Of a stretch of DNA of 64,000 nucleotides, positions 9,708-62,403 are shown in pieces. Origin of the DNA: Diplonema papillatum. Its lineage: Eukaryota > Euglenozoa > Diplonemea > Diplonemida > Diplonemidae. Both the position numbers and the translations under genes were made by a program. The DNA lies in assembly GCA_030068145.1 (NCBI GenBank), contig JAPJBO010000380.1:141654-205653 (forward strand), read 5' to 3'. A model generated the notes under the pieces. The model ran no database searches, was not told the DNA's origin, and saw only the letters and a list, made by a program, of their open reading frames with translations. How positions within the stretch are numbered: the first letter of the stretch is position 1; every line of letters starts with the position of its first letter.

Positions 9708-9840
9708 CTGTCAGGCGCTGTCGGGTAGGGCTGTGTCGAAGAGGTGCCCACGGCCAGTAGGTAAGTGACAAGGAATCCATATCCATACCTCCAGGGACGA
9801 AGAAAGGAAGAGGAGTACACCGCAAGAAAAGGCACTAACC

Positions 9841-13030: not shown

Positions 13031-13207
13031 GCAGGGTTTTGCCAACACCCCGAAAAAGAGAAACCAACTTTTGGAGAAACCCCCGGACAACCCGATTCTT
13101 GCTAGAAAATCCCTCACACACATTGGAAAAACAATCGGCTTTCGGACTCTGGCAGCATTTTCATACTCAACCAGGAATACCCGAAAGAAAGAGCAAGCAA
13201 TGAAAAA

Positions 13208-16200
13208 ATGAACGCACTCTTTGGGGGATGCTCGCGAAAACCTGGAGTTACAGGTCCAGGAGGCCAGATTCCATCCCTGGCCTACCACACAGAGTATGAG
13301 CTATGGACCGCAGCGGACTTCAAGACCATTCCTGTGGTGCATCGCTCGTACCCCAAACCATGGCCTGGAAAGAATACCCTCTTCTCCGTCAAGCCCGCAA
13401 AAGTCGGCACTGAAGTTGCAGACGTGAAGGAGTTCTTGAGCCTTCAACTTCTAGTTCGTGGGTTTTCCAGTTCCCAGAACTTCCCTCAGCCCAAGAAGGT
13501 GTGGTTGCTGAAGAAGGCGGACGAGCTTGCTTCAAGTGATACCGGCGGCAAAAAGACATGGGTGCAACTTGTGGGAGAGACGGGGAAAGCCTGGGTGGCT
13601 GAGGAGAAAAGGATTGCGGCGGAGAAGAAGGAAGCGGTTGAAGCTGCAGCAAGAGCAAAGGCGGCGCAAGAAGAGCTGGAAAAGCAGATGGCCGCAGAAG
13701 TAACTGCACGTAGGCTGTCAGAGGGAGAGGTACAAACAGCCATGGAAGTCGAAGCCGAAACACCGAACGCTGTATCTACTCAGGCAGCTCTTCCTAGCTT
13801 CCCCACAAGTGGACCTCAGGAACCAAAGAACCTGTACCTGAGTGATGCCTACCTCCGTCAGCTGGTGCTTCTGGTAAAGGAGCAGTTCACCCGTGAAACC
13901 CTGGAAGAGAGGATAGCGCTGCGTGAGATACTGGCGAGCAGGTCGGCTGGAAAGCGCAAGCAGGCAACGAAGCCCCGGGAGTACAAGCGCATTGCAGGTC
14001 CTGCGCCATATGTGTCGTTGCTGGACTACGAAGTAAGCGCCTTCTTACGGTCCAAGTACGGACTAGACGATGGTGCTTGTGTTCCGCAATTTGGTGGTAC
14101 TGGCTCGATGTTTCCCACTGACTTCGAGCTTTTGTGCATCCCTCCCGACTTGTTCTCCAACAAGCGTTTCCGAGGGGTCTTGAAAGCGAATCCGTGGATT
14201 CTGTGCACAAGTCAAGGAATGTATTGTCGATGCTGTCGTAGACAGACAGCGGGTAAGAAAAAGCGTGCCTTCATTAATCTGTGCATTCCTTTTGAAGTCT
14301 TCAAAAAGGGGCTCCTACCACAGTACATCGAAAAGCACCGGAAGAAGACCGTGGGTCATAACAAGGCCTGGAGTTCATTTCTGAACTTGTTGGAAGATCA
14401 GATGCGTCTTCCGTCTTCTTGCCAGCTGCCTTCCACTTTGGAAGACCTCAAACAGCGCCTTATGAACACACAACACCTGGTCTTCGTCATCCAGACAATT
14501 GTTGATACCATCAAGCGCGACCTGCCCATGTCCAGCATTCGTGACACGTTCAGTCTGGTATCCCTGTTTGACGATTCAATTCGTTCGTTCTGCAAGACGC
14601 GTTTGAATATGTCGTCACCGTACTTCCTAGAAGTAATTGTGGATTCTTTGTACTCGTGGTGCAAATCCCATGTGCTGGAGAAAATTCAAGCGTCAGAGTT
14701 CACGAGCATCATGTTTGACGAAGCAGAGGACGTAAAGCGCTCAAAACAACATGCACTGTTTTTCAAAATACTGTCGGAAGAGGGGGTTGAAGAAGTCTTT
14801 TGGGACATACTTCCTTTGCGCAAATCAGCGACTGGGGAAAACGTCGCAGCTCACATTGCGGGCATGGCAGATAATGTTCAAACGTGGACAACAACTATGG
14901 GCATCGCAACTGATGGCTGCAGTACAATGAAAGGCGACTACAAGGGTGTACAGACACGCCTGCGCGAACAGTTGGTACCATTTGCCATTTGGATTTGGTG
15001 CTTGGGGCACAAACTCAACCTCGCCTGCATTGAGGCGTGTCGTAGTGCTCCGCAGATACAGGCATCAGTCACTGCAACTGAAGAAATCTTTTCGTTGTTT
15101 CGGAAAGGACAGGGTGATATTTCGTACAAGACACGAAAGTTTAAAGAGTGTAAGGAAGCCTGTTCTGTGACCGACAACTTCTTTGTCTTCCGAGATTTGG
15201 AACTTGTGGAACCTGGCGACACAAGATGGGTTTCCCATGAACGCGCCGCTCAAACAATAGCAGAGTGCATCAAGCCCATTCTGCTTGCGATTGCCCGGCT
15301 TTGCGAAGAGAAAGACATACCACAAGCCCTGCATCTTCGCGAGAAACTGAATCACACTGTTTGCTTATCGTTCAGCCTGCTCGCACAAGCAACTCCCATT
15401 CTTTCGAAACTGAGCCAATCCCTGCAAAGGTCGGACACGTGTTGGACAGAAGTGCTGAAGCTAAAGGAGTATTACCTGAGCTGGCTTCGGCGTCTGCGTG
15501 ATATTCCTCTGACGGACGAGCAGATAGCGGAAGATCCTGAAGAAAGACTGCACTTTGTTGAGTACATAACCTTCTGGGAAAAACTCAAGGATGCAGTGCC
15601 ACCTTCCTGGAATCGCCAGCCTCTAGATTACGCCTTTTTTGTCGCTTTCCATCGCGAGTTTGCGACGCCGTTCTTGGATCGGCTCATTTCGTTGGTTGAA
15701 GAGAGACTCGGGGATCTACCTGTGCTGTCATCTTTGGGTGTGTACGATCCAAACGGCCCCTTAGTGGAAAGCCTTTTCCATGATGTGGATCTGACGTGCG
15801 GAACTCCGAGTGATGTTGCATCGCGATTGTTGCCACAGAGGCTTGACCCGCTGCTCAAGAAACTCAACCCGTTTTTTGCCCACTTTTGCTGTACCAGGAA
15901 AGAGAAGAAGACCGTGCACCCAACAGGCGCGACCACGTGGACCGTTCAGCCTCCTTTTTACAGCCAGGCCTTTGAGGCAACGGTGCGTGAGCAGTTGCCT
16001 GAAGCACTGGTGCGCATGAAGCAAATGACGAATGTGAACAAGAAATGTTCATTCACAGAGAACACCCTTGATTTCCTTCGCGACACCCACTGCCAGCTCC
16101 GATTCCCGGAGACATGCCAAGTCTTGAAAATGGCACTGGTCTTCCCACTTGGAAGTGCTGGCGTTGAGCGGCTTTTCTCCAGAGTAAAGCTGATCAGAAC

Positions 16201-16678
16201 CTACCTCAGGAAAGGCATGAGCGAAACAACATTGCGCAAGCTGTTGTTTATTGCTCTCAACATGCCATCTACTGGGGAAGGGAATACGGTTCCTTCTGCT
16301 GTGATGGAACACGTGTTAACAACCTTTGTCGTGGACGGGGTTTCTGTTCGAGCCAGAAAGCAGCTGACACGGCCAGGGAATCCTGACGATGAGGGCGACT
16401 CTGATGACGACTCGGCTGGCCTTGCTGGTGAGTTTGAAGATGCAAAAGCTTCCAGTGACACCGATTCAAGTACGGGGTCTGAAGACGAGCGTTCCGTTCT
16501 ACTTCACTCTGACAATCGCAAGCTGAAGTACGCGTCCTATCCTTTTTACACAGAGGCCAAAGACATCATTTCGTCTTGGCGAAGGGCTTTTTCCTCCAAT
16601 CCTTCTCTCTACTTCAATCCGACGGAGGCCCAAGAACACGTGACAAGCGCACGCAACGTGCGCCAGCGTGTTCGATGA
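13208..16678 (+). CDS. hAT-superfamily transposase 2 (1156 aa)
   Basis: A long hAT-type transposase. The N-terminal third has an Ala/Glu/Lys-rich segment likely to form a coiled coil (about residues 135-185). A zinc-finger-like cluster follows (C340, C343, H377, H384). The catalytic core has D504 in IMFDEAEDVKRSKQHALFF, D569 in ATDGCSTMKGDYKGVQTRL and the CLGHKLNLA segment. The dimerisation region at about 980-1030 contains GSAGVERLFSRVKLIRTYL (E987). The tail is rich in Asp and Ser. The ATG at 13208 follows an A-run and fits the start of the conserved frame. The layout resembles the host-gene-like hAT proteins with DUF4371-type cores. The frame is intact over 3.4 kb. No flanking inverted repeats were resolved, so it could be a transposon or a stabilised gene. 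Confidence 0.92.
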   Translation: MNALFGGCSRKPGVTGPGGQIPSLAYHTEYELWTAADFKTIPVVHRSYPKPWPGKNTLFSVKPAKVGTEVADVKEFLSLQLLVRGFSSSQNFPQPKKVWLLKKADELASSDTGGKKTWVQLVGETGKAWVAEEKRIAAEKKEAVEAAARAKAAQEELEKQMAAEVTARRLSEGEVQTAMEVEAETPNAVSTQAALPSFPTSGPQEPKNLYLSDAYLRQLVLLVKEQFTRETLEERIALREILASRSAGKRKQATKPREYKRIAGPAPYVSLLDYEVSAFLRSKYGLDDGACVPQFGGTGSMFPTDFELLCIPPDLFSNKRFRGVLKANPWILCTSQGMYCRCCRRQTAGKKKRAFINLCIPFEVFKKGLLPQYIEKHRKKTVGHNKAWSSFLNLLEDQMRLPSSCQLPSTLEDLKQRLMNTQHLVFVIQTIVDTIKRDLPMSSIRDTFSLVSLFDDSIRSFCKTRLNMSSPYFLEVIVDSLYSWCKSHVLEKIQASEFTSIMFDEAEDVKRSKQHALFFKILSEEGVEEVFWDILPLRKSATGENVAAHIAGMADNVQTWTTTMGIATDGCSTMKGDYKGVQTRLREQLVPFAIWIWCLGHKLNLACIEACRSAPQIQASVTATEEIFSLFRKGQGDISYKTRKFKECKEACSVTDNFFVFRDLELVEPGDTRWVSHERAAQTIAECIKPILLAIARLCEEKDIPQALHLREKLNHTVCLSFSLLAQATPILSKLSQSLQRSDTCWTEVLKLKEYYLSWLRRLRDIPLTDEQIAEDPEERLHFVEYITFWEKLKDAVPPSWNRQPLDYAFFVAFHREFATPFLDRLISLVEERLGDLPVLSSLGVYDPNGPLVESLFHDVDLTCGTPSDVASRLLPQRLDPLLKKLNPFFAHFCCTRKEKKTVHPTGATTWTVQPPFYSQAFEATVREQLPEALVRMKQMTNVNKKCSFTENTLDFLRDTHCQLRFPETCQVLKMALVFPLGSAGVERLFSRVKLIRTYLRKGMSETTLRKLLFIALNMPSTGEGNTVPSAVMEHVLTTFVVDGVSVRARKQLTRPGNPDDEGDSDDDSAGLAGEFEDAKASSDTDSSTGSEDERSVLLHSDNRKLKYASYPFYTEAKDIISSWRRAFSSNPSLYFNPTEAQEHVTSARNVRQRVR

Positions 16679-31164: not shown

Positions 31165-31841
31165 ATAACCCCGTTTCTTTGGGTTTAGCAGTCCCTGTCG
31201 GATACAGAGGTCGCATACCCCGTGCGCCCAGTATCGTTCGTCGCCAGGATCTTTCTGCCTAAACCCGGAGACCCTAAAAACCCGAACCATCAAGCCACAT
31301 TACACGCCAAAACCTCCCTCCCCCTTCTGGCATCGTCTCCTGTGTACACGGTGAGGTCCAGCCTCAGAAGCTGGAATTGCGGGTACAAGAGAAACACATC
31401 GCCCTTACTTACTCTAAGGAACCCCGGTCAAGAAAGGTCACCCGCTAAAGGTTCCGGCATCTCAAGCGAATCCTCTGCCAACACTAAGCGTTTCGTATAT
31501 CCACGAGAATTTCTGATTCTGGTTCCGACCCTCCACGGGTCGCGCAACGATCGCGCCCTCCCGCCGGCTCTTCCCGGCTTCTTGCGTCCTCCGCATCGCG
31601 GCGTGCCTATCGGCGCAAGCGAGAAAGCGAAGATTCCGATTCCTTTTCGGATTACGAACTCGTGAGCAACTGCCAACAACAGTTGCAACCGACTAGAGTT
31701 GCGCCGCGCCGAAAGCGCGGAAAAGGTGACCCTTCTGGAGTCACGTAGCGAAAAGCTGGCATAGTGTGGTACTCATTTGCATGCAAATGACTCCCCACTA
31801 GCGCAACAAGAAGTGCAGGAGTACCCGAAGACGAGCAGCAC
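31165..31841. other. Stretch without a supported gene
   Basis: An open frame ending at 31749 encodes an acidic/serine segment (RKRESEDSDSFSDYELVSN) that could be the tail of a lost upstream ORF of the retroelement that follows. Otherwise nothing is recognised. A 48-bp foldback lies at 31760-31807. Confidence 0.35.
31760..31807. repeat. 48-bp foldback, second copy at 36495-36542
   Basis: CATAGTGTGGTACTCA, TTTGCATGCAAA and TGACTCCCCACTA form an imperfect palindrome. The reverse-complement copy at 36495-36542 interrupts an R1 repeat, so the unit looks mobile. Confidence 0.65.
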
Positions 31842-33373
31842 ATGTGGCGGGAATGCACCAGATGGGCCGCGGTGAGGAGCGAGTATTCACACCTTCTCGC
31901 AAGCCGCCCGAACATGCCAAAATGTCTTGCTCTCTGTGGCGTCGTGCCGAAGCAGACACACCAAGACGGGGAAGCAGGCATGGCAGGCCCGATCCAGCTT
32001 ATGTGTGCGCGCATATTGCTTGAGCGACAACGGGTGGAGGGATTGGTTGAGAAGAACTGCCGGCGAAAAGAGTTTCGTGTCGACGACTACCCGTGGGGGT
32101 GGAACCCGAAGCCCCCGACGGCCGTGTACCCAATCGACGTGCAGAGAACCCGACCGAGCACTACGGCCTGGCCCGACTCCCACGAGATGCTCTTGGCGAT
32201 GGCAAAGTGGAGCTCTTCGAAGCGATGGGCGGAACAAGGAGGCGATGTCTCGACGACATTTTTTGAGCTTGCGATCGACTTCGAGCTGTTCAGCGGGCTG
32301 ACGCTGACACCTGTCAAAACTCGGTGGCGAGAGAAACGCAATCCGGGAGAGAAGGAGAAACGGTGGGTGGCGAGGGACGAACTACCATCGCCGCAGACGG
32401 CAGTCTTCTTCGACGGCGGCTCGCGGAACAACGGGACGCGAGGGGCCGTATCGGGTGCAGGAGCTGTGTACTACCTCGAGGGAAAGAAACAGTGGGAAAT
32501 CTGCGCTCCGATCGAGGAGCGAGCGACGAACAACATCGCAGAGTACACGGCTCTAGTCAAGGCACTACACCGACTGCAGGACCAACCGGGGCTGAGCGGA
32601 GAGCTGGTAGTACGGGGGGACAGCGAACTTGTCGTTTCCCAAATGACAGGGAACGCGCGCTGCTCCGAAGCGTTACGCCCACAAGGCGAGAGCGCAGGCG
32701 GAGGAAGCGGAGCTGCGGCAGAGAGGCGTCTTCGTGAAATTAGAGCACGTGCCACGTAGACGCCGACGCTCTGTCGAACCGCGCGATGGACGAGGTTCAA
32801 AGACGAGCGACGGCGGAATATCGCGACTCGGTGACCGCGAAGTCATACGCGATGAAGAGCGCGATGCGACGCCTGGCAAAGATTGTGCAGAAGCCAGTGC
32901 ATCCGGCACTTGAGATGCACGTCAACGTCCTGACATCTCTTGGAGGCGGAAACATGGCCGGCCTCAATAAGAGGCCGCAGATGTCGAACCAGCAGGCCTT
33001 CGAAGACGTGATGCGCGCGTATGAGGCAGCCGCACGAGAGCAGACGGCGAAGAAGGCCGGCGACAAGGTGCGAGCCGTACCGCAAGCAGGACTCCGCAAG
33101 GCTGCGACGCTGAACGGCAGCTTTCGTCCCCAGAGGCATTACCCGTCGGGATGGGAACGCAAGCAGTCCCGATGGAAACACGAAGCCATGCAGGAGAGAC
33201 GAGCAGCGCAGAATGAGCGCAAGACAGGCGCCAAGAGCAGATCAGGACGTTGGGACCGTCCCAAGCCGAAGAAGGAGTCCAAAAGCGAAGCAACAACACC
33301 AACACGGAGACGCAAACCGAAGGCAGCCAAGCAGACCTCCCAGGGCAGGGGGGAACCTGCGGCGGTGAAGTAA
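31842..33373 (+). pseudogene. Retroelement ORF with RNase H domain, two frameshifts
   Basis: Probable C-terminal part of a retrotransposon polyprotein. The first frame (31842-32759) contains WAEQGGDVSTTFFELAIDFE, a segment typical of the region after reverse transcriptase in protist LINE-like elements. An RNase H domain follows: AVFFDGGSRNN (catalytic D), NNIAEYTALVKAL (catalytic E), VVRGDSELVVSQMTG (catalytic D). After MTGNARC the expected sequence continues one frame over (APKRYAHKARAQAEE ... VFVKLEHVPR). It shifts again just before ADALSNRAMDEVQRR, where frame 32786-33373 carries it on as a basic 195-residue tail. Neither shift leaves room for an intron. No reverse transcriptase was found upstream. 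It is most likely a decayed element; assembly error at the two points is the alternative. Confidence 0.75.
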
Positions 33374-33542: not shown

Positions 33543-33858
33543 CCTCAAAATCACGCTAAAGCCCCCAGGACTTTCAAGCGAACTTTCACTCTACAACTCC
33601 CAGGACGATCAGTAAGAACGGAGTGCAGGGGTGGATGGAACAGCTTTAAACCTCAAAATCACGCTAACACCCCCAGGACTTTCAAGCGAACTTTCACTCT
33701 ACAACCCCCATGACGATCAGTAAGAACGGAGTGCAGGGGTGGAGGGAACAGCTTTAAACCTCAAAATCACGCTAAAACCCCCAGGACTTTCAAGCGAACT
33801 TTCACTCTAAAACCCCCAGGACGATCAGTAAGAACGGAGTGCAGGGGTGGAGGGAACA
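33543..33858. repeat. 108-bp tandem repeat, three copies, leading into the kinase start
   Basis: Unit starts (CCTCAAAATCACGCTAA) are at 33543, 33651 and 33759. All contain GGACTTTCAAGCGAACTTTC and GATCAGTAAGAACGGAGTGC. The third copy runs to GGGAACA, whose last A is the first base of the kinase ATG; other copies continue GCTTTAAA. The promoter or 5' leader of the gene is therefore built from this repeat. Confidence 0.92.
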
Positions 33859-34964
33859 TGGTTGTTTACCGCAACAACGACGATGCTGTGTGCGACATCG
33901 AGATCCCGGAGAGCGAAGCAGCTGAGCACGCGGGGAAGGCGGTCGCGGCCGTGGTGCCCGGGTGGAAGGGGGAGGATGTCAGCGTGAGCCCCGTGGGCGG
34001 CGGGATCACGAACCTCCTGTTCAAAGTCACCAGCAAGGGCGAGCCGAGCTACTTGGTGCGCCTTTACGGCACGAACACGGAGGTCGTCATCGACCGGGAG
34101 GAGGACAACCGCCTCTTCGCGAAGCTGAGCGAGCTTGGGTTCGCGCCCACGTTCCACGGCCGCTTCAAGAACGGGCGCGTCGAAGCGTTCCTCTCCTGCA
34201 GGGCGCTCGAGCCGGCGGAGATGTGCAGCGCGGACTTCTTCCCGCGCATCGCGCGCAAGCTCCGCCAGATGCACGACACGCAGCTGCCGCCGGCGAAGCC
34301 GCCGCTGCTCCTGTCCCGCATCGAGAACTTCCTCGCCATGGCCGGCAACGTCCAGTTTCCGGAGAAGCCGAGAGCCGCCTTGCTCGACGCCCTCGACATC
34401 CCGAAGATCGCGTCCGAATTCGCGTGGTTCCGCCGCGAAATGGAGGGCCGCGTGCACCCTTTCTTCCTCGACAACGTCCTCTCGCACCAAGACCTGCTCT
34501 CGGGCAACGTTCTCGTAGACCCAGTCGACCCGAAATCGGGCGAACTGCACTTCATCGACTTCGAGTACGGAGGGTACAACTACAGGGGATATGACTTCGG
34601 AAACCACTTTTGCGAGTACGCTGGATTCGAGTGCGACTACAGCAGGTACCCGGGGAAGGAGCAGAAGAAGGCATTCATCAAAGCGTACTTGCGGGACGGC
34701 GACCGGAAAGCCGACGAAACGGAGGACTCGTTCCTGAACCGGCTGGCGGACAGCGCGGACGTGTTCGCGTGCGCATCGGACCTGCTGTGGGGCGTCTGGT
34801 CCGTGCTGCAGGCGAAGCACTCGCCGATCGACTTCGACTTCCTCGACTACGCGAGGCTGCGCCTCGGCGCGTACTACTACCACAAGGCACTCTTCCTTGA
34901 ACCGCGAAGTGGCCCGTTCTCGTACGAGGATGCTCTCCGGTTGGTGACGCCTGCTTCTAGCTGA
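33858..34964 (+). CDS. EKI1: Ethanolamine kinase (choline/ethanolamine kinase family)
   Basis: Phosphorylates ethanolamine (possibly also choline) with ATP, the first cytosolic step of the Kennedy pathway to phosphatidylethanolamine. The 368-residue length is normal for the family. GGGITN (47-52) is the nucleotide-loop region. VRLYGTNTEVVIDRE (67-81) and GRFKNGRVEAFL (101-112) are family segments. LSHQDLLSGNVLV (208-220) is the kinase Brenner motif, with D212 as catalytic base and N217 binding metal. FIDFEYGGYNYRGYDFGNHF (232-251) is the choline/ethanolamine kinase signature, with D234 for magnesium. The DLLSGN and EYAG-C-YS-YP spacing matches plant-type ethanolamine kinases best. It is a single exon. 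The ATG coincides with the end of a 108-bp repeat. Its own 3' end has a decayed duplicate downstream. Confidence 0.93.
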   Translation: MVVYRNNDDAVCDIEIPESEAAEHAGKAVAAVVPGWKGEDVSVSPVGGGITNLLFKVTSKGEPSYLVRLYGTNTEVVIDREEDNRLFAKLSELGFAPTFHGRFKNGRVEAFLSCRALEPAEMCSADFFPRIARKLRQMHDTQLPPAKPPLLLSRIENFLAMAGNVQFPEKPRAALLDALDIPKIASEFAWFRREMEGRVHPFFLDNVLSHQDLLSGNVLVDPVDPKSGELHFIDFEYGGYNYRGYDFGNHFCEYAGFECDYSRYPGKEQKKAFIKAYLRDGDRKADETEDSFLNRLADSADVFACASDLLWGVWSVLQAKHSPIDFDFLDYARLRLGAYYYHKALFLEPRSGPFSYEDALRLVTPASS

Positions 34965-36224: not shown

Positions 36225-36302
36225 GCTCGTGGGGCGCAGCCGATGTATCCGCAGCCGCCACCCAGTCACTTTCCGGCGGCAGCAGCGTCCTGGTCGTGTA
36301 TG
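36225..36302 (+). pseudogene. 78-bp relic of the ion-channel gene
   Basis: Translates as SWGAADVSAAATQSLSGGSS then VLVVY, against SWDAAELSAAVNQSLSGDDN then VLVVS in channel copies 1 and 2. The frame is open over the matching part. Flanking sequence does not match. It is more diverged than the three tandem copies are from each other. Confidence 0.85.
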
Positions 36303-43498: not shown

Positions 43499-46018
43499 AT
43501 GCGTGCGCTGGTGCTTGCGAGCTGGCTGGCCTTGTCAGCTGGCGCGCTTCGCGTGGTGCTGGTCGCTGACGCGCCGGACGTCGTCAACTACCGACATACA
43601 CGCGGCGTGTCGGCGGCGGTGCCGCAGCTGCGAATTGCGCATCCAGCGGTCGACTGGCGGTTCGTCCACCCGGCCTGCGCGGCTTGCTCAACTCTCGACC
43701 GCGCAACGCCGGAGCGTGCCGTCCAAACCCTCCTCGAGAACTCGTGGGACGCAGCCGAGTTGTCCGCAGCCGTCAACCAGTCGCTTTCCGGCGACGACAA
43801 CGTCCTGGTCGTGTCCATCGACACGGCGATCCCCCCTTCCCTTGCATTCCAGCACCCGTCCGCCAGCTTCGTCGAGCTGAACCCGGACTCCAACGCCGGT
43901 TCGAAGCTCCGCAAGGCGCCGAACCTCGCGTCCTTCAACGTTCCCACCGCCAAAGGTGCGTACACAAACGGCGTCGTCAGCGCGATGGTAGCCCGCAGCG
44001 CCGGCGGGAAAGTGGCGGTGTTCACGCCGTCGAATCCGGGGCTGCTCGGGAAGGACTACACAGACGTGGTCAGAGCGTACCGGCAGGGCGCGTCGGATGC
44101 GAGCGCCGAATTGTGCTCGATTGTGGTGCCGGTGCCCATCGCCGTGTCTACGGAGTGGAACCCTACCGTGTTCAACGAAGTCGAACGAGTGGCGATGGAC
44201 GCGCTGTGGGCGGGATACGCGGTGGTGCAGGCGGAGCTGGGCCCGTACAACGCGGCGGTACTTTCGGGGTTGGTCGAATACAACGCGTTGACCAATCGAA
44301 GCACGCCGGCCTACGCGACCACCGGAGTGTCGATGGGCGCGTTCGAGACGTCCGGCACGCCTTTGAACACGCGATGGCTGTCCTCTGTGACAGTGGACTG
44401 GCAGGCGGCCATCAGTAAAATAGTCTCCGACTTCTCCGGTGGCCTTGGTGCGGTTGAGTCTCTTCGGGACCCGAGCGACACGTTCTGGACGCCGGCGGCC
44501 TCGCAACTTGACACCTTCGACACCTCCGCCGAAGTGTCGCGAGTGCAAGCGCGGCCGTGCTCCGCCCCGGTGAAGTCGCTGGAGACGATAGTAGCCGCGG
44601 TTGCGGACACTCTCGACGAGGCGTTCGCGCTGTCGGACATCCCGACGACGACACCCTCCTGCCGAGACCTGCCCCTCTCAAAGCTCAAGAGCACGCGGCG
44701 GCTGGTCAGCGGGTGTTTCCGGGGGACTAAAGTGCGGTTGGTAGGCGTGGGAATCAACGTGAACATCATCGGGGCGGTGGACGTGATGATGGGCGCGTTT
44801 TACGCGGACTACCACCTGTATCTGAAGGAGAGCGTGCTCCAGTACGACAATGCGGTCGCCGCGTATGACGCCATGCGGCATGGTGACGAGTGTCAAGACG
44901 AGAGTATCAAGTGCCTCTGCCCGGATTTCGCGGAAGGGACGATTCCGTTCATCTCCCCGGCGCGCGTCGAGAACTTTACGCGGATCGTCAGCCTGATGAA
45001 TGTGTTCCCGCCTGAGGTGCGCACCATTTACGTCAGGCGCTCGCGGCGCCGCATCATCGACCACTTCCGCATCACCGGCACGCACCACTTCAAACTTGAC
45101 CTCACTGAGTGGCCGCTCGACACGCAGCATCTGTCCATTGTTCTCTCGCACACGTCCGACAGCACGACAGACGGCTACGAGGTGCAGTTTTGTCACATGC
45201 CCGGGTACGCAGGGCTGTCGCCGACGAGCCGGTATTTTCCGGGGATGGAGCTGAAGATGAACCAGCGGGCGTGGAACGTGGGGCTGAACACGACGTGCTG
45301 GCCGGAGCTGGAGTACACGGCCGCGTACCAGACGGGGGAGTGCAACCCGGACGGGACCACGTCCCGGCCTGTCTGGTACACCAAGCGCGAGCTGCCCTTG
45401 GCGGATGTCAGCTGTACGTGCCTGGGAGGGACGAACCCGGCATCTCGGTACATTTTCACGCCGATCTTCCAGAGGCCGCGGTTGCCGAGCTTCTTCAGGA
45501 TGTTTCTCCCACCGATTTTCATCAGCATGGTGGTGCAGGGGGCTTGGTTCCTGTACCCGCGAGTGTTCGCCACCCGGCTGTCGGTCTGCGGCTCGTCTCT
45601 GGTCACCTCCGTGCTGTTCCACGTCAACATCGCGCGTTCCTTCCCCGACACTTCGACTCTAACCCGCGCCGACAGGTTCATGGCTGTCACCTACTGGAAC
45701 ATCCTGGTCGTGTTCATCTTCGTCTACTACCAAACCCTCCTCCACCAAGGCGACATGCCCCGTCTAGCATGGCACAGCTTCCGCACGTCGCGCGTGTGGG
45801 GCCCTGCCACCGCTGTGCTCAACGCGTGCGGGATGTTTGTAACGGACGACATCAAAGACCTGGTGGGCTGGGTGCTCATCATGAACTGCTTCACGGGCCT
45901 CATCGTGTTCTACATCATCAGCGAGCTCCTGCGTAAGTACGGGGAGCAGTACCTTGAGTATCTCGACATCCAGAACACGAAGGCGGAGTTCGAAAGCTGG
46001 CATGATACCCTCGAGTGA
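43499..46018 (+). CDS. BMP-domain pentameric ligand-gated ion channel, copy 1 (839 aa)
   Basis: Predicted plasma- or endomembrane ligand-gated channel. MRALVLASWLALSAGA is a signal peptide; the ATG at 43499 is chosen because it starts this peptide and is shared by all three copies. Residues 17-312 resemble the BMP/PnrA branch of type-I periplasmic-binding proteins: NLASFNVPTAKGAYTNG (142-158), GGKVAVFTPSNPGLLG (169-184), YATTGVSMGAF (272-282), WLSSVTVDWQAAISKIVSDF (293-312). Residues 410-660 are the channel ligand domain: VGVGINVNIIGAVDV (415-429) and the loop KLDLTEWPLDTQHL (532-545). That loop keeps W-P-x-D-x-Q but has Lys and Leu where Cys-loop receptors have cysteines. Four membrane helices follow at about 664-686, 690-712, 726-746 and 787-811. 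The M3-M4 loop is about 40 residues, short as in prokaryotic channels. It is a single exon. Ligand and ion selectivity are unknown. Confidence 0.88.
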   Translation: MRALVLASWLALSAGALRVVLVADAPDVVNYRHTRGVSAAVPQLRIAHPAVDWRFVHPACAACSTLDRATPERAVQTLLENSWDAAELSAAVNQSLSGDDNVLVVSIDTAIPPSLAFQHPSASFVELNPDSNAGSKLRKAPNLASFNVPTAKGAYTNGVVSAMVARSAGGKVAVFTPSNPGLLGKDYTDVVRAYRQGASDASAELCSIVVPVPIAVSTEWNPTVFNEVERVAMDALWAGYAVVQAELGPYNAAVLSGLVEYNALTNRSTPAYATTGVSMGAFETSGTPLNTRWLSSVTVDWQAAISKIVSDFSGGLGAVESLRDPSDTFWTPAASQLDTFDTSAEVSRVQARPCSAPVKSLETIVAAVADTLDEAFALSDIPTTTPSCRDLPLSKLKSTRRLVSGCFRGTKVRLVGVGINVNIIGAVDVMMGAFYADYHLYLKESVLQYDNAVAAYDAMRHGDECQDESIKCLCPDFAEGTIPFISPARVENFTRIVSLMNVFPPEVRTIYVRRSRRRIIDHFRITGTHHFKLDLTEWPLDTQHLSIVLSHTSDSTTDGYEVQFCHMPGYAGLSPTSRYFPGMELKMNQRAWNVGLNTTCWPELEYTAAYQTGECNPDGTTSRPVWYTKRELPLADVSCTCLGGTNPASRYIFTPIFQRPRLPSFFRMFLPPIFISMVVQGAWFLYPRVFATRLSVCGSSLVTSVLFHVNIARSFPDTSTLTRADRFMAVTYWNILVVFIFVYYQTLLHQGDMPRLAWHSFRTSRVWGPATAVLNACGMFVTDDIKDLVGWVLIMNCFTGLIVFYIISELLRKYGEQYLEYLDIQNTKAEFESWHDTLE

Positions 46019-46384
46019 CAGAAGCAGCTTTTCTCATACCCGGGGTGGACGTCCTCAGTAGCATAGAGTGCACCCCAGGAGCTGCAGGGCCCGATACCAG
46101 AAGGCCCAGACGAAACCTGATCGCCTCGCGCCACTCGTTGGCCGAGAAGGAGCTCTCCAAGTGGGCAATGCCGTCTATTTTCTGGGGCCAGGCGGGTGGG
46201 AGGAAAATTCGTGTCCTGTTCGGTGGGTGTCGTTCTCTGCCGGGGCTTTGCACGAAATTAGCTGGTTCCCATTTTAGTCCCAACGATTTGCAGCTATTGA
46301 CCCGAAGTAGGCGGAAACACAAGAAAAAGAGCATCAAAGGAAGTCTTTCGCAAACCGTCAGTGGGGGTGCTCCCACCCCCTGCC
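46019..46384. promoter_or_regulatory. Spacer between channel copies 1 and 2
   Basis: Highly similar to 48908-49287 along its whole length (TGATCGCCTCGCGCCACTCG, CGTCTATTTTCTGGGGCCAG, GCATCAAAGGAAGTCTTTYG). It must hold both the 3' signals of the upstream gene and the promoter of the next. The last 115 bases are also upstream of copy 1, where the similarity stops at about 43384. Confidence 0.6.
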
Positions 46385-48904
46385 ATGCGCGCGCTGGTGC
46401 TTGCGAGCTGGCTGGCCTTGTCAGCTGGCGCGCTTCGCGTGGTGCTGGTCGCTGACGCGCCGGACGTCGTCAACTACCGACATACACGCGGCGTGTCGGC
46501 GGCGGTGCCGCAGCTGCGAATTGCGCATCCAGCGGTCGACTGGCGGTTCGTCCACCCGGCCTGCGCGGCTTGCTCAACTCTCGACCGCGCAACGCCGGAG
46601 CGCGCCGTCCAAACCCTCCTCGAGAACTCGTGGGACGCAGCCGAGTTGTCCGCAGCCGTCAACCAGTCGCTTTCCGGCGACGACAACGTCCTGGTCGTGT
46701 CCATCGACACGGCGATCCCCCCTTTCCTTGCATTCCAGCACCCGTCCGCCAGCTTCGTCGAGCTGAACTCGGACTCCAACGCCGGTTCGAAGCTCCGCAA
46801 GGCGCCGAACCTCGCGTCCTTCAACGTTCCCACCGCCAAAGGTGCGTACACAAACGGCGTCGTCAGCGCGATGGTAGCCCGCAGCGCCGGCGGGAAAGTG
46901 GCGGTGTTCACGCCGTCGAATCCGGGGCTGCTCGGGAAGGACTACACAGACGTGGTCAGAGCGTACCGGCAGGGCGCGTCGGATGCGAGCGCCGAATTGT
47001 GCTCGATTGTGGTGCCGGTGCCCATCGCCGTGTCTACGGAGTGGAACCCTACCGTGTTCAACGAAGTCGAACGAGTGGCGATGGACGCGCTGTGGGCGGG
47101 ATACGCGGTGGTGCAGGCGGAGCTGGGCCCGTACAACGCGGCGGTACTTTCGGGGTTGGTCGAATACAACGCGTTGACCAATCGAAGCACGCCGGCCTAC
47201 GCGACCACCGGAGTGTCGATGGGCGCGTTCGAGACGTCCGGCACGCCTTTGAACACGCGATGGCTGTCCTCTGTGACAGTGGACTGGCAGGCGGCCATCA
47301 GTAAAATAGTCTCCGACTTCTCCGGTGGCCTTGGTGCGGTTGAGTCTCTTCGGGACCCGAGCGACACGTTCTGGACGCCGGCGGCCTCGCAACTTGACAC
47401 CTTCGACACCTCCGCCGAAGTGTCGCGAGTGCAAGCGCGGCCGTGCTCCGCCCCGGTGAAGTCGCTGGAGACGATAGTAGCCGCGGTTGCGGACACTCTC
47501 GACGAGGCGTTCGCGCTGTCGGACATCCCGACGACGACACCCTCCTGCCGAGACCTGCCCCTCTCAAAGCTCAAGAGCACGCGGCGGCTGGTCAGCGGGT
47601 GTTTCCGGGGGACTAAAGTGCGGTTGGTAGGCGTGGGAATCAACGTGAACATCATCGGGGCGGTGGACGTGATGATGGGCGCGTTTTACGCGGACTACCA
47701 CCTGTATCTGAAGGAGAGCGTGCTCCAGTACGACAATGCGGTCGCCGCGTATGACGCCATGCGGCATGGTGACGAGTGTCAAGACGAGAGTATAAAGTGC
47801 CTCTGCCCGGATTTCGCGGAAGGGACGATTCCGTTCATCTCCCCGGCGCGCGTCGAGAACTTTACGCGGATCGTCAGCCTGATGAATGTGTTCCTGCCTG
47901 AGGTGCGCACCATTTACGTCAGGCGCTCGCGGCGCCGCATCATCGACCACTTCCGCATCGCCGGTACGCACTACTTCAAACTTGACCTCACTGAGTGGCC
48001 TCTCGACACGCAGCATCTGTCCATTGCTCTCTCGCACACCTCTGACAGCACGACAGACGGCTACGAGGTGCAGTTTTGCCACATGCCCGGGTACGCAGGG
48101 CTGTCTCCGACGGCCCGGTATTTCCCGGGGATGGAGCTGAAGATGAACCAGCGGGCGTGGAACGTGGGGCTGAACACGACGTGCTGGCCGGAGCTGGAGT
48201 ACACGGCCGCATACCAGACGGGGGAGTGCAACCCGGACGGGACCACGTCCCGGCCTGTCTGGTACACCAAGCGCGAGCTGCCCTTGGCGGATGTCAGCTG
48301 TACGTGCCTGGGAGGGACGAACCCGGCATCTCGGTACATTTTCACGCCGATCTTCCAGAGGCCGCGGTTGCCGATCTTCTTCAGGATGTTTCTCCCGCCG
48401 ATTTTTATCAGCATGGTGGTGCAGGGGGCTTGGTTCCTGTACCCGCAAGTGGTCTCCACACGGCTGTCGGTCTGCGGCTCGTCTCTGGTCACCTCCGTGC
48501 TGTTCCACGTCAACATCGCGCGGTCCTTCCCCGACACTTCGTCTCTAACACGCGCCGACAGGTTCATGGCTGTCACCTACTGGAACATCCTGGTCGTGTT
48601 CATCTTCGTCTACTACCAGTCCCTCCTCCACCAAGGCGACATGCCCCGTCTAGCATGGCACAGCTTCCGCACGTCACGCGTGTGGGGCCCTGCCACCGCT
48701 GTGCTCAACGCATGCGGGATGTTTGTGACGGACGACATCAAAGACCTGGTGGGCTGGGTGCTCATCATGAACTGCTTCACGGGCCTCATCGTGTATAACA
48801 TCATCAGCGAGCTCCTGCGTAAGTACGGGGCGCAGTACCTTGAGTACCTCGACGTCATGAACTTGACGGCAGAGCTCGAAAGCTTGGAAGACAGCAACGA
48901 GATA
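46385..48904 (+). CDS. BMP-domain pentameric ligand-gated ion channel, copy 2 (840 aa)
   Basis: Same architecture as copy 1: signal peptide, BMP/PnrA-like domain, Cys-less ligand domain, four membrane helices. The stop codon is TAG at 48905-48907. Over the first 500 residues it differs from copy 1 at only two positions (PPFLAF for PPSLAF; ELNSDS for ELNPDS). From about 500 on it diverges more (NVFLPEV, IAGTHYF, SIALSHT, SPTARYF). Its cytoplasmic tail is unique (YLDVMNLTAELESLEDSNEI). The WPLDTQ loop and the helices are kept, so it is probably functional. The ATG at 46385 starts the signal peptide; an upstream GTG in frame is not needed. Confidence 0.87.
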
Positions 48905-48907
48905 TAG

Positions 48908-49287
48908 GAGCAGCTTATCTCATACCAGGCGTGAAGGTCTTCAGGAGCGTCGAGTGCTCCACCAGCAGCTGCAGGGCCCGACACCGGAAGGCCCGCACGA
49001 AACCTGATCGCCTCGCGCCACTCGTTGGCCGAGAAGGAACTCTCCAAGTGGGCAACGCCGTCTATTTTCTGGGGCCAGGCGAGTGGGAGGAAAATTCGTG
49101 TCCTGTTCGGTGGGTTTCGTTCTCTGCCGGGGCTTTTGCACGAAATTAGCTGGCATTAAGTTCCCATTTTAGTCCCAACGACTTGCAACTATTGACCCCA
49201 AGCAGGCGGAAACACAAGAAAAAAGAGCATCAAAGGAAGTCTTTTGCAAACCGTCAGTGGGGGTGCTCCCGCCCCCTGTCGCGAGCC
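48908..49287. promoter_or_regulatory. Spacer between channel copies 2 and 3
   Basis: Near-duplicate of 46019-46384, including the poly-purine AAACACAAGAAAAAAGAGC shortly before the ATG. The repeat unit (ATG to ATG) is 2886 bp for copies 1-2 and 2903 bp for copies 2-3. Confidence 0.6.
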
Positions 49288-58565: not shown

Positions 58566-61500
58566 CAGGGTTTTTTCTAGGATTTCAAATTTTCGAGCTG
58601 GAGTGGGGAAACTTTTCGACGCGTTTCAGAGCCGAATTGCCAAGCAATCCACGCAAATTGCGCTTTGTGGTGCTGGCTGCGGGCTTTTCCCCCAAGGCAG
58701 CTTAGTTCGACGTTCTCCTGGTGCCTATTAGGCCGGTTAGTTCGTTGTCTTCACATGGGTTCAGTTGCCACAGCAGGAAGGGAGTGAACGAGGGTTGTGT
58801 CACAAAAAAAACGGGTGCTGCATTTAGGAATGATAGTCGTGGAACAACCTGGGACAGATCCCACTATGCAGAATTGGCCTTCGCCTGCACAAAGTTTAGG
58901 CGACGGCTCGGGACCATCTCGACAAAACGGTCAACAACCTTCTCCAAAAAGACCATCGAAAGCTCTGGTGGACCCTCGATACGGATGCGCAGGATCATAT
59001 CCAAATGTCCGCTCGTGAGCCGGTTCCTTAAAAGATCCAGGGTGTCTTTGAGAACACTGAATGATCGCTCAACAGCACTCGTCCCTGAGGGATAAGTGGC
59101 GACCAACCGCATGGCGGAGACTGCACGTGGGAGTGCTTGCGCCTCGTGCTTCATGGCATAAAGCAAGGCATCCTGAAAGCTGAAAGCCTCGGGATCTGTG
59201 CACCTTTCCTTGGTCATCTGAATGGTCTTGAGCAATTGGGGTAGCTCGTGCTTCACACCCCGACCCTGGGCAGCACTCCACATCGGCTGGAAATGTCTGT
59301 CCTCTTTTCCTGTCACTTGGACCGTTTTGCACGTTGTGAAGTGTTCAACGAAAGTGTCGATCAATGCTGCATCACTATCGCAGTCGTGTCCGAACGCGTA
59401 CTTTGGGTCAAAGAGAGCCAGCACACTCACGATACCGTAATCCTTGAACCGGGTTTTGAGCTGCTCGACTAGCTTCTCACAGTAAACCTTTCCAGTCGCA
59501 GCATGGTAAAGGGACCACGATTGCTTGCCGACTGTCTTCCCGCTTGCGTGCTCGGATATGTACCAATTGTAGTACAGCGGCCACGTGTGGTAGCCAATGT
59601 CGGCAGGCTGGATGGACTGGGGGTCCAGGGTCGGGGGAGCGAGGTCTTTGATGGCAGTGATGGAACTGATTACAACTTCAACTTGTCGGGAAACACCGAT
59701 GAGAGCGGAGGCCCCCTTTTGTAGCTGCAGGGAAAGAGGACAGACAATCCCAAAGATTTCACGCAAGAGGAAGAGGGACGCAATGAATGCCGGGGACAGC
59801 AACCGTGTGACAAGCCCAGTCGAAAGAGCGTCTCCGGACTCTGCCCGGAGGTCTTCGATTGTTTCGTAAATGGCTGGCCACGTGCGAAGGGTCACAGCAG
59901 CCGATCTCTCGTTAGTCAACCATCTTGTATCACCGCTTTTAACCAAGACTTTGTTCGGCATTCGGCTGAACCTTTCCTTTTCCCTCACCTCCTGGATGGT
60001 GTCGCGGTACCGTCCCATCCTTTGTGTACTCGCCCTGAGGAAGAAGAACAAGTCCCTCAGGCTGTTGACACAACTGAGAACGTCAAAGGTGAGCATGGCA
60101 GCCCAGACAACTGCCAGTTGCAGTTTGTGAGAACTGCACCACACGTACACAGCGAAGGCATTGTACTCCCACTTCAGCCTTGCCTGAACCCCTCCAAACT
60201 CACCGCTCATGGTATTCGTGCCATCAAGTGCAATCGCCACGAACTTTTCTGCGGGAACAGGGGCCCCCAAGGGCGGCACCGCCGCGTCCTGAGCGAGTTC
60301 CTCTGGTGGGAGACGGTACCGCAGGCGCTTGATGAGCTGCTTAGTGACACTTGCGGCATCCTTGCCAGCATCTAATGGAAGCATGCACCAAAAGACGTCC
60401 CACACCCCGCGCTCCGATGTTCCACGAAGGAAGATGGAGAGTTCCTCTTGGTGCTTCACATTCTCCGTCTCATCAGCCAAAATTGCGAGATACGGCGATT
60501 TCTTCACTCGCTCTTCAATTTCGGTCCTCAGGACCCAGTCGATTGCCTCCAGGATTTGAGTGGCAATGTTGGTGCTCGTGTAGGTTGCATTACGGGTGGA
60601 AGACACAAAGCTCCGGAGATCTGTGTCGGTTCGGGTGATGAGACGGATCAGGGGCTCGTAGTTGGTTGTGTGGGCTATCCCCTCCTTGACGAGAAAATAG
60701 AGCTTCATGAGCTGGAGACGGTTTTCCTGCACTGCGGCCTTTCGCAAACCCCCCAAACCCACGCCGGTCAATCGGTGCATTTCTGCCTCTGCAGCTGCCT
60801 TGTGAGAGGCGGTGTTCCCATGGGACGTAGATCGTTCCCCGAGTTTGTCCATGTTCACAAACGGGGTTTCAATCCACTTTTCTGCAGCACTCCCGGTCTT
60901 CTTTCCCCCCATTCCTCGGAGAAGCATCCGGTGGTGCCGGCACAGCGCACAGTAGTAGCCGTGCCGCCCCGCGACAAGCCACGAATAGCGAGCTTTGACT
61001 TTTGCAAACCGTTCGTCGTTGGCCCAGTCATCGCTCGCATCGGAATCCTCATCCTTCTCATCGACGCAGCTTTCGAGGTCTTCAACGACAACGCTCTGAT
61101 CCAATAACCGCGAGACCTCAAGATCCCACTGCTCATACGAAGCGATAGGTTGAACAGGGTCCTTCGTCTCTTTCTTCTTTCTTGCTGCCGCTCTTTCGTG
61201 CGGAGGCACAGTTCGTTCCGACACCGGTATGAATGTCTTCGGTTCTGCACTCCACTCAAAACCCTCCTCTCCTTCTGCTTTTCCCGCCCAAAGAACGTCG
61301 TCAGTGACCCCTGGAAACTGACACCGCAGCTGCTTTTTGCTCACCTTCGTGTGCCACTTCTTTGAGCTCTGCGACGTTCTCGAAGCCTGCGAGGCGGCGG
61401 AGTCGTAGCCCTCGGATGCTTTGTCGGCGTCGGGCAGTGGTGCTTGCTGCGTGGCCTGCTGCTGACGTTTCGGTCCTTTGTCGTGTTCCTGGACTCGAGC

Positions 61501-62403
61501 CATGAAATCAGCTTTCTTGAGGTACCCGATCCCTGTTCTCTTCCACGTCAAACCCCGCAGTTTTCCTTGCTCTTCCAACAACACTGCCGACCAAGCCATG
61601 TAGTTATGGAGGATCTGCTGGTTTGCTGGGACTTGGCGTTCAGAGGCAGGTGGCTGAGCTTGAAGTGGTCCAGGAGGGGGTTGTGTCGGTGGCTGTACTT
61701 CAGGTGTCGGCTGAGAAGGTGGATCACCTTGTTGGGTTGGTGGTGTCTCTGTGGCCTCATCGCCTGTCGAGTCCTCGCGCTTACGTTTGAGTGGCGTAAA
61801 AAACCCTGCAAGTGTTCCCTGCCGCGACATTGTTTGTGTTTCCGACGATGAACGTCAGTCCGTCGTTTTTTATGTTGTTATTGTTTGTCTTCACACCCGC
61901 ACCATTTCTTTTCCTTTATGTTGGTAGTTTCGGCTGATGCCCACCCTTTTGACAAGGTGTGGTGGGATGGCGATTTTGCGTAGTCGTCGGGTACCGATTT
62001 GCAGGTCTTTGTTGGTTGCCACGATGCCCGTTCTGCCGCCTTGTCATCCCGGTTCCTGGTACCTATTACGAAGCCGTTGAGAACCTCCTCCAGTGTCATC
62101 TCGTTTTCGTCGGCGCCGCACAGGGGCTCGTTCTGTACTCTCTCAGGTGGGTCTCGTCGTTGGTTGTCAACACGTGCTGCATTTCCTGCCTGTCTCGTCT
62201 TTTTTTCTTTCTTCCTTTCTCTTCTTTTTTCTGCCCCTTTTTTTGCACTTCTGGAGCGATTGCGTTGCGATGTGGGGTCGCAGCTTTTCTGGCGATGCTG
62301 CAATGAACAGAAAAAAAAAAACCCACTCCAGCCCACTCAGATTTTCGCCAAGAATCTGGAGTGGGGAAAATCCCCACTCCAGCCCACCCCAGAAAAAACC
62401 CTG
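58566..62403 (-). mobile_element. Complete hAT transposon with 6-bp target-site duplication
   Basis: The terminal repeats are CAGGGTTTTTTCTAGG (left) and CAGGGTTTTTTCTGGGG (right, reversed). Subterminal CTGGAGTGGGGAAA motifs lie on both sides, and one forms a 27-bp palindrome at 62356-62382. The flank CGTCGC stands at 58560-58565 and at 62404-62409, and once only in the uninserted M1 copy (24183-24188). The CAGGG start is hAT-like; a 6-bp duplication is shorter than the usual 8 bp. It encodes the intact transposase at 58864-61830, so it may be autonomous. Confidence 0.9.
58864..61830 (-). CDS. hAT-superfamily transposase 3 (988 aa) with N-terminal PIP-box-like motif
   Basis: Transposase of the surrounding element. 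Residues 4-11, QGTLAGFF, fit the PCNA-binding PIP-box pattern (Q-x-x-L-x-x-F-F). A Pro/Gln-rich linker follows to about residue 72. A BED-like finger lies at 288-343 (C294, C297, H337, H343). The RNase H-like core has D453 in LAILADETENVKHQEELSIF and D536 in AIALDGTNTMSGEFGGVQARL, then CSSHKLQLA. The C-terminal dimerisation block has SGTSAVERSFSVLKDTLD (E921). The ATG at 61828-61830 begins the PIP-box and no better start exists. The frame is complete, and start and stop sit about 570 and 300 bases inside the terminal repeats. It belongs to the same broad group as transposases 1 and 2 but is not a close copy of either. Confidence 0.95.
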   Translation of the reverse strand: MSRQGTLAGFFTPLKRKREDSTGDEATETPPTQQGDPPSQPTPEVQPPTQPPPGPLQAQPPASERQVPANQQILHNYMAWSAVLLEEQGKLRGLTWKRTGIGYLKKADFMARVQEHDKGPKRQQQATQQAPLPDADKASEGYDSAASQASRTSQSSKKWHTKVSKKQLRCQFPGVTDDVLWAGKAEGEEGFEWSAEPKTFIPVSERTVPPHERAAARKKKETKDPVQPIASYEQWDLEVSRLLDQSVVVEDLESCVDEKDEDSDASDDWANDERFAKVKARYSWLVAGRHGYYCALCRHHRMLLRGMGGKKTGSAAEKWIETPFVNMDKLGERSTSHGNTASHKAAAEAEMHRLTGVGLGGLRKAAVQENRLQLMKLYFLVKEGIAHTTNYEPLIRLITRTDTDLRSFVSSTRNATYTSTNIATQILEAIDWVLRTEIEERVKKSPYLAILADETENVKHQEELSIFLRGTSERGVWDVFWCMLPLDAGKDAASVTKQLIKRLRYRLPPEELAQDAAVPPLGAPVPAEKFVAIALDGTNTMSGEFGGVQARLKWEYNAFAVYVWCSSHKLQLAVVWAAMLTFDVLSCVNSLRDLFFFLRASTQRMGRYRDTIQEVREKERFSRMPNKVLVKSGDTRWLTNERSAAVTLRTWPAIYETIEDLRAESGDALSTGLVTRLLSPAFIASLFLLREIFGIVCPLSLQLQKGASALIGVSRQVEVVISSITAIKDLAPPTLDPQSIQPADIGYHTWPLYYNWYISEHASGKTVGKQSWSLYHAATGKVYCEKLVEQLKTRFKDYGIVSVLALFDPKYAFGHDCDSDAALIDTFVEHFTTCKTVQVTGKEDRHFQPMWSAAQGRGVKHELPQLLKTIQMTKERCTDPEAFSFQDALLYAMKHEAQALPRAVSAMRLVATYPSGTSAVERSFSVLKDTLDLLRNRLTSGHLDMILRIRIEGPPELSMVFLEKVVDRFVEMVPSRRLNFVQAKANSA

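Follow-up and report, generated by a model that had tools for sequence, protein, structure and literature searches.

Among bacterial pentameric ligand-gated ion channels (pLGICs), Tasneem et al. (2004) described fusions to the domains PBP-I, MCP-N and Cache; the only eukaryotic pLGICs that they reported were those of animals (PMC549065). Protist channels were recorded by Jaiteh et al. (2016) in stramenopiles, green algae, opisthokonts and alveolates (PMC4795631), and a 2025 study describes the N-terminal domain of the prokaryotic channel DeCLIC as the only such domain with a partial characterisation (PMC12664993). Here we analyse a 64,000-nucleotide stretch (the window) of the genome of Diplonema papillatum, a member of the diplonemids, which have been described as abundant and widespread marine protists (PMC12699882). 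The window carries three tandem genes whose translated reading frame joins two domain types in a fixed order, an outer BMP/PnrA-like domain and then a pentameric channel subunit. We regard it as fairly probable that the outer domain binds a small planar molecule and that a predicted five-part pore is opened or modulated by this binding.

Each gene on the + strand is a single open frame of 839–840 amino acids (aa), based on open reading frames (ORFs) and their translations: copy 1 at 43499..46018 (complete, 839 aa, BMP-like domain plus pentameric channel), copy 2 at 46385..48907 (complete, 840 aa) and copy 3 at 49288..51807 (complete, 839 aa), with a repeat unit of ~2.89 kb. Copy 1 begins with a hydrophobic, signal-like N-terminus (residues 1–17, 43499..43549; hydropathy, with a model helix at 2–13) and continues with the BMP/PnrA-like domain (residues 17–335, 43547..44503; profile comparisons and predicted fold), the extracellular beta-sandwich of the channel (residues 411–658, 44729..45472; predicted model, fold comparison and alignment) and the transmembrane helices M1–M4 (residues 659–812, 45473..45934; hydropathy, models and alignment). 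In copies 2 and 3, whose proteins share 97.0% and 96.9% identity with that of copy 1, the BMP/PnrA-like domain lies at 46433..47389 and 49336..50292, respectively. The channel domain, comprising the extracellular domain (ECD) and M1–M4, was placed by hydropathy and alignment at 47615..48820 in copy 2, aligned to copy 1, and at 50518..51723 in copy 3, where M2 has Glu at −2′.

A first-pass annotation, made from the letters and ORFs alone, had assigned these fusion genes to a eukaryote, and both the fusion itself and the host were borne out. The window's assembly (271 Mb, 2910 contigs; lineage Eukaryota, Discoba, Euglenozoa, Diplonemea) contains P0002 (DIPPA_25409 of Diplonema papillatum) at 100% over 844/844 residues and P0011 (DIPPA_11419 of the same species) at 99.9% over 873/967 residues, both annotated 'hypothetical protein'. 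We rejected a contaminant as the source because the same genome holds these two proteins named for the species; the hAT-type ORFs and choline kinase of the window are further evidence against it. A viral origin was likewise rejected, with none of nine pattern matches in viral_contigs confirmed, and a search for near relatives in prokaryotes gave 31 pattern matches and no confirmed one.

The genome encodes at least six full-length fused genes on three contigs: besides the three in the window, C248 carries one and C590 a pair that share 45% and 38% identity with copy 1. This count is a lower bound, as the genome search scored the best candidates only. Of the 7996 candidates that a protein search scored, ten proteins, counting the window's own, reached E ≤0.001, and a search starting from P0010 added P0011; a profile search of the protein database brought no further members, the window's own protein being its sole return. 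P0003, P0005 and P0007 bear Trinity names from EukProt and so come from transcript assemblies. A 13-row tree splits into two groups, one consisting of P0009, P0010 and P0011 (100/100) and the other of the remaining ten rows; it is merely drawn with a midpoint root, and 4 of the 10 inner branches are open. D. papillatum is represented in both subfamilies, and the predicted proteins of both have the same BMP-then-channel order. It is hardly conceivable that the fusion is an artefact of assembly or annotation: nothing but the tandem repetition, which can confuse assemblies, speaks for this, against which stand the six full-length genes over three contigs, relatives in other assemblies and transcript sets, and the presence of the fusion in both subfamilies.

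The outer domain belongs to the BMP/PnrA family by profile homology, in agreement with the first-pass annotation. The family profile matched PnrA of the PDB (E 3.3e-6) and a BMP alignment (E 2.4e-8, or 1.2e-9 once AtzT was added). Comparisons of the family profile with single sequences were weak, giving 29% without a useful global alignment for AtzT and 0.5% for L045, a BMP domain from elsewhere in the genome. The window copies had no match to Pfam Bmp (PF02608) at E values up to 10, and the best PF02608 score among the relatives was 19.0 bits (P0003), under the curated score of 24.1. A two-lobed type I binding-protein fold of the BMP kind is confidently predicted; AtzT heads the Foldseek list for the predicted domain, and proteins with bound guanosine, adenosine or inosine are among the domain's fold neighbours. 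Chance or composition as the source of the domain matches was rejected by profile, fold and control comparisons. The predicted models were also checked for the binding-protein fold and for pentameric-channel topology, and neither was contradicted.

To examine the ligand pocket, we used residues known from two kinds of BMP protein. In BmpA and its relatives, Phe27 and Phe176 stack the base while Asp98, Asp225 and Lys242 contact the sugar (PMC13325309); motif and spacing were used to place these on L031, a BMP protein of B. turcica. Phe176 falls on W220, in a column where 8 of the 13 family rows have an aromatic, Trp in seven and Phe in one. Phe151 falls on V190, Asp225 on T275 in the window copies (10 of 13 rows share the Thr, whereas P0009 and P0010 have Asp) and Lys242 on V299 (Val, Leu or Phe in all 13). 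Y31 stands in the Phe27 loop in an unsure register, in a column that is aromatic in 12 rows with a gap in P0009. Among the five nucleoside-binder positions compared (Phe27, Phe151, Phe176, Asp225 and Lys242), only Phe176 thus has an aligned aromatic and, because the pocket residues are mostly missing, we file the domain as BMP-like and not as a nucleoside binder.

The first-pass interpretation stands for the fold, the domain order and the eukaryotic host, but its proposed nucleoside ligand is not supported. A nucleoside is in our view an unlikely ligand, even though the whole-domain profile is closest to the nucleoside-type BMP set (E 5.8e-10, versus 4.3e-6 for the AtzT set and 2.3e-6 when a diplonemid member was added to the latter), nucleoside-bound proteins are among the fold neighbours, and the Asp at the Asp225 column is kept in P0009 and P0010 of the other subfamily. 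Against it are the substitutions at the Asp225, Lys242 and Phe151 columns and an (N/D)W motif just past the Lys242 place, which by eye is present in 8 of 13 family rows and 5 of 6 AtzT-type rows but in 0 of 5 nucleoside-type rows.

AtzT clasps guanine between Tyr45 and Trp194, with Asn218, Asn220, Glu165 and Ser97 further contributing to its pocket (PMC6834077); we located its gene on pADP-1 via the published residues. W220 matches Trp194 through the BMP alignments, and Y31 aligns with Tyr47, two positions off Tyr45. A planar heteroaromatic is favoured as the ligand, and a purine-like one appears a better guess than a nucleoside. Two results weigh against the likeness to AtzT: the alignment to AtzT alone places W220 on W191, three positions off Trp194, and the whole-domain profile is closer to the nucleoside set, as given above. 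Membership of an AtzT-type subgroup was considered for the Foldseek lead and the (N/D)W motif, but the profile scores favour nucleoside-type BMP proteins.

The second half of each protein reads as a complete pentameric-channel subunit without Cys-loop cysteines, which upholds the earlier description of a complete channel of prokaryotic type. A beta-sandwich and four-helix channel fold is predicted, and its best fold matches are the bacterial channels GLIC, sTeLIC and DeCLIC. The Pro-loop is WPLDTQ (residues 538–543), and P539, D541, Q543 and R659 are invariant in 13/13 rows. The pair of cysteines framing the Pro-loop was not found; residues 524–564 of copy 1 hold no Cys, so the channel is counted as Cys-less and, judged by these residues, is not a Cys-loop receptor in the strict sense. 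Loop C is long (residues 600–644, CWP...C...SCTCLGG), with C600, C639 and C641 present in 13/13 rows and C615 in 12/13. It has 56 residues between W592 and S649, compared with 19–20 in prokaryotic rows (the 6 of 12 rows where these anchors were found).

M2 spans about residues 691–713 and has an invariant Arg at 0′ (R693, 13/13 rows), its placement and numbering having been made by eye from the alignment and general knowledge. Position −2′ is Ala in copy 1 and Ser in copy 2; copy 3 has Glu there, as do 6 of the 10 remaining rows. Glu at −2′ in GLIC, and close to it in nicotinic receptors, is tied to cation selectivity. By analogy, copy 3 at least may be cation selective. The M2 sequence is unusual (SVCGSSLVTSVLFHVN) and copies 1 and 2 are without the −2′ Glu, as might be expected of a surface receptor that no longer conducts and keeps its channel half as a scaffold; we judge this very unlikely, however, given the invariant R693 and the conservation of the membrane helices and Pro-loop across the family (the model of P0004 ends inside M2).

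The main rival to ligand control through the outer domain is that the BMP domain is a ligand-free structural or assembly cap, with the channel gated at its own extracellular site by a proton, calcium or a transmitter-like ligand. We hold this to be doubtful, though it has several points in its favour. The loss of most nucleoside-contact residues and the faster divergence of the BMP domain (15–35% identity to copy 1, versus 31–50% for the channel) both count against a bound ligand. The invariant loop C cysteines C600, C639 and C641 also suit a channel with a site of its own, and the N-terminal domain of DeCLIC appears to speed gating and binds calcium (PMC12664993). Conversely, P26, Y155, G158 and G197 are invariant in 13/13 rows, which together with the frequent aromatic at 220 and the confident two-lobed prediction fits a kept binding cleft. 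The rapid divergence is itself ambiguous, as it may be expected of paralogues that differ in ligand and equally of a drifting domain.

Under our preferred reading, in which the outer domain binds a ligand, the channel is likely to be under the control of a small molecule from outside the cell. By comparison with the two families, the signal-like start would direct the BMP domain, together with the channel ectodomain, to the cell surface or to a vesicle lumen, and five subunits would assemble as a ring, possibly mixed among the near-identical copies. The clamshell would then close on its ligand, pulling the channel's outer domain via the ~75-residue linker and so biasing the channel ectodomain. 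More tentatively, and as a possibility that we would not back strongly, diplonemids may have evolved a purine-sensing channel, in which capture of a purine base, or of a comparable heteroaromatic, from solution by the extracellular BMP clamshell opens a cation pore, the tandem copies being tuned in pore and tail. If so, a bacterial nutrient-uptake receptor would now serve as the agonist site in a eukaryotic channel related to neurotransmitter receptors. More generally, if the outer domain gates the pore, the family would be a natural experiment in swapping ligand specificity onto pentameric channels and a candidate mechanism for chemosensing by diplonemids, and would lend itself readily to electrophysiology and cryo-EM.

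The three copies share 94.9–97.0% protein identity. Pairwise ratios of nonsynonymous to synonymous divergence (dN/dS) were 0.41 (copies 1 and 2), 0.36 (1 and 3) and 0.42 (2 and 3), with dS of 0.039, 0.042 and 0.065, respectively; we therefore consider the copies recent and under constraint. Their most variable part is the tail (residues 813–839), above all in copy 2. GC content is 61–63% across the gene cluster versus 49–55% downstream. Two degenerate, frameshifted C-terminal pieces follow copy 3 on the + strand, one of a further copy (M3–M4 plus tail) at 51942..52224 and a second at 52431..52745. C-terminal fragments (membrane helices and 3′ end) stand in tandem downstream of copy 3 and of both C590 genes, the three loci that were looked at, and L039 contains a duplication (99.3%) of a 764-bp unit whose M2–M4 frame is open. 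We considered alternative last exons, or spare pore cassettes, and rejected them for the window, where the fragments are frameshifted and so were treated as remnants. Separately, a 74-bp stretch at 36226–36299, 7 kb upstream of copy 1, matches the genes' BMP region at 78–85% identity.

At least three further channel loci in the genome (L046, L047 and L048) exceed the Neur_chan_memb cut-off. In L046 and L048 there is a ligand-binding domain (E 1.6e-37 and 5.5e-35, respectively), the cysteines of a Cys-loop were recognised by eye, and the open frames searched have no Bmp match; L047 comprises the membrane part only within its open frame. Because L046 and L048 are Cys-loop-type channels of the same genome, the fused family stands beside, and not instead of, the usual kind. 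Both (L046:655-2406, + strand; L048:922-2622, − strand) also have an EF-hand-like motif after M3 (EF-hand_6, E 3.6e-5 and 2.3e-4, under the curated score), from which direct calcium control from inside is possible. L045 (574-2169, − strand, contig C148) encodes a separate AtzT-like BMP domain, which matches Pfam Bmp at E 1.2e-27 and shares 31% identity with AtzT over 375 columns. An ephrin-receptor-like Cys-rich repeat comes after it, and the whole resembles the extracellular portion of a further surface receptor. Elsewhere in the window are long ORFs matching the hAT-transposase dimerisation domain at 9769-12594 (+; E 1.8e-7) and 58867-61854 (−; E 0.0063, below cut-off), an RNase H-like ORF at 31791-32756 (+; E 6.1e-8), a choline/ethanolamine kinase at 33714-34961 (+; E 4.5e-72) and a 1190-residue open frame at 13106-16675 (+) with no Pfam match at E up to 0.01. 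The window held nothing in Rfam at gathering scores and no tRNA.

The first-pass annotation knew of no described eukaryotic channel with this domain order, and we likewise found no eukaryotic BMP-channel fusion described in the open-licence literature searched. The bacterial PBP-I-fused ART-LGICs resemble the Diplonema proteins in having an N-terminal type I periplasmic-binding-protein domain, proposed as a sensor, before a complete channel; they are alpha-proteobacterial and, compared by description only, are not assigned to the BMP kind in the available portion of that paper (PMC549065). DeCLIC, a pentameric channel of prokaryotes, also has a large domain at its N-terminus that changes gating, but the lobes of this domain, in the account available, are related to calcium-binding domains and have no binding-protein fold (PMC12664993). 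The membrane region matched DeCLIC weakly (E 0.0034–0.0037). Pfam Bmp was found in 0 of 30 prokaryotic channel loci, DeCLIC's own included, in a sample drawn from DeCLIC-like patterns with five frames open at a contig edge, and a search of plasmids with DeCLIC pieces gave no match. GLIC and sTeLIC share the predicted channel fold, the Pro-loop and the absence of Cys-loop cysteines, but lack an outer domain and the long Diplonema loop C with its CWP...CxC motif.

PnrA, TmpC, BmpA/BmpD, Lbp and AtzT are stand-alone bacterial or archaeal binders, several adjoining or named as parts of ATP-binding cassette (ABC) importers, whereas the BMP-like domain of Diplonema is fused to a eukaryotic channel and, relative to the PnrA/BmpA type, has mostly lost its ribose-contact residues. 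AMPA and NMDA receptors are tetrameric and have an unrelated channel. They too place a binding-protein-type domain outside an ion channel, a parallel drawn for DeCLIC (PMC12664993), and their likeness to the Diplonema proteins is a convergent arrangement. The protist pLGICs are superfamily channels of unicellular eukaryotes, some of them Cys-less, and in the main text of their survey the words Euglenozoa, N-terminal, periplasmic and 'additional domain' do not appear (PMC4795631). Bacterial channels fused to binding proteins were thus already known; what appears to be new is a eukaryotic fused family, with two subfamilies, that places a nutrient-receptor domain on a relative of the nicotinic and GABA receptors.
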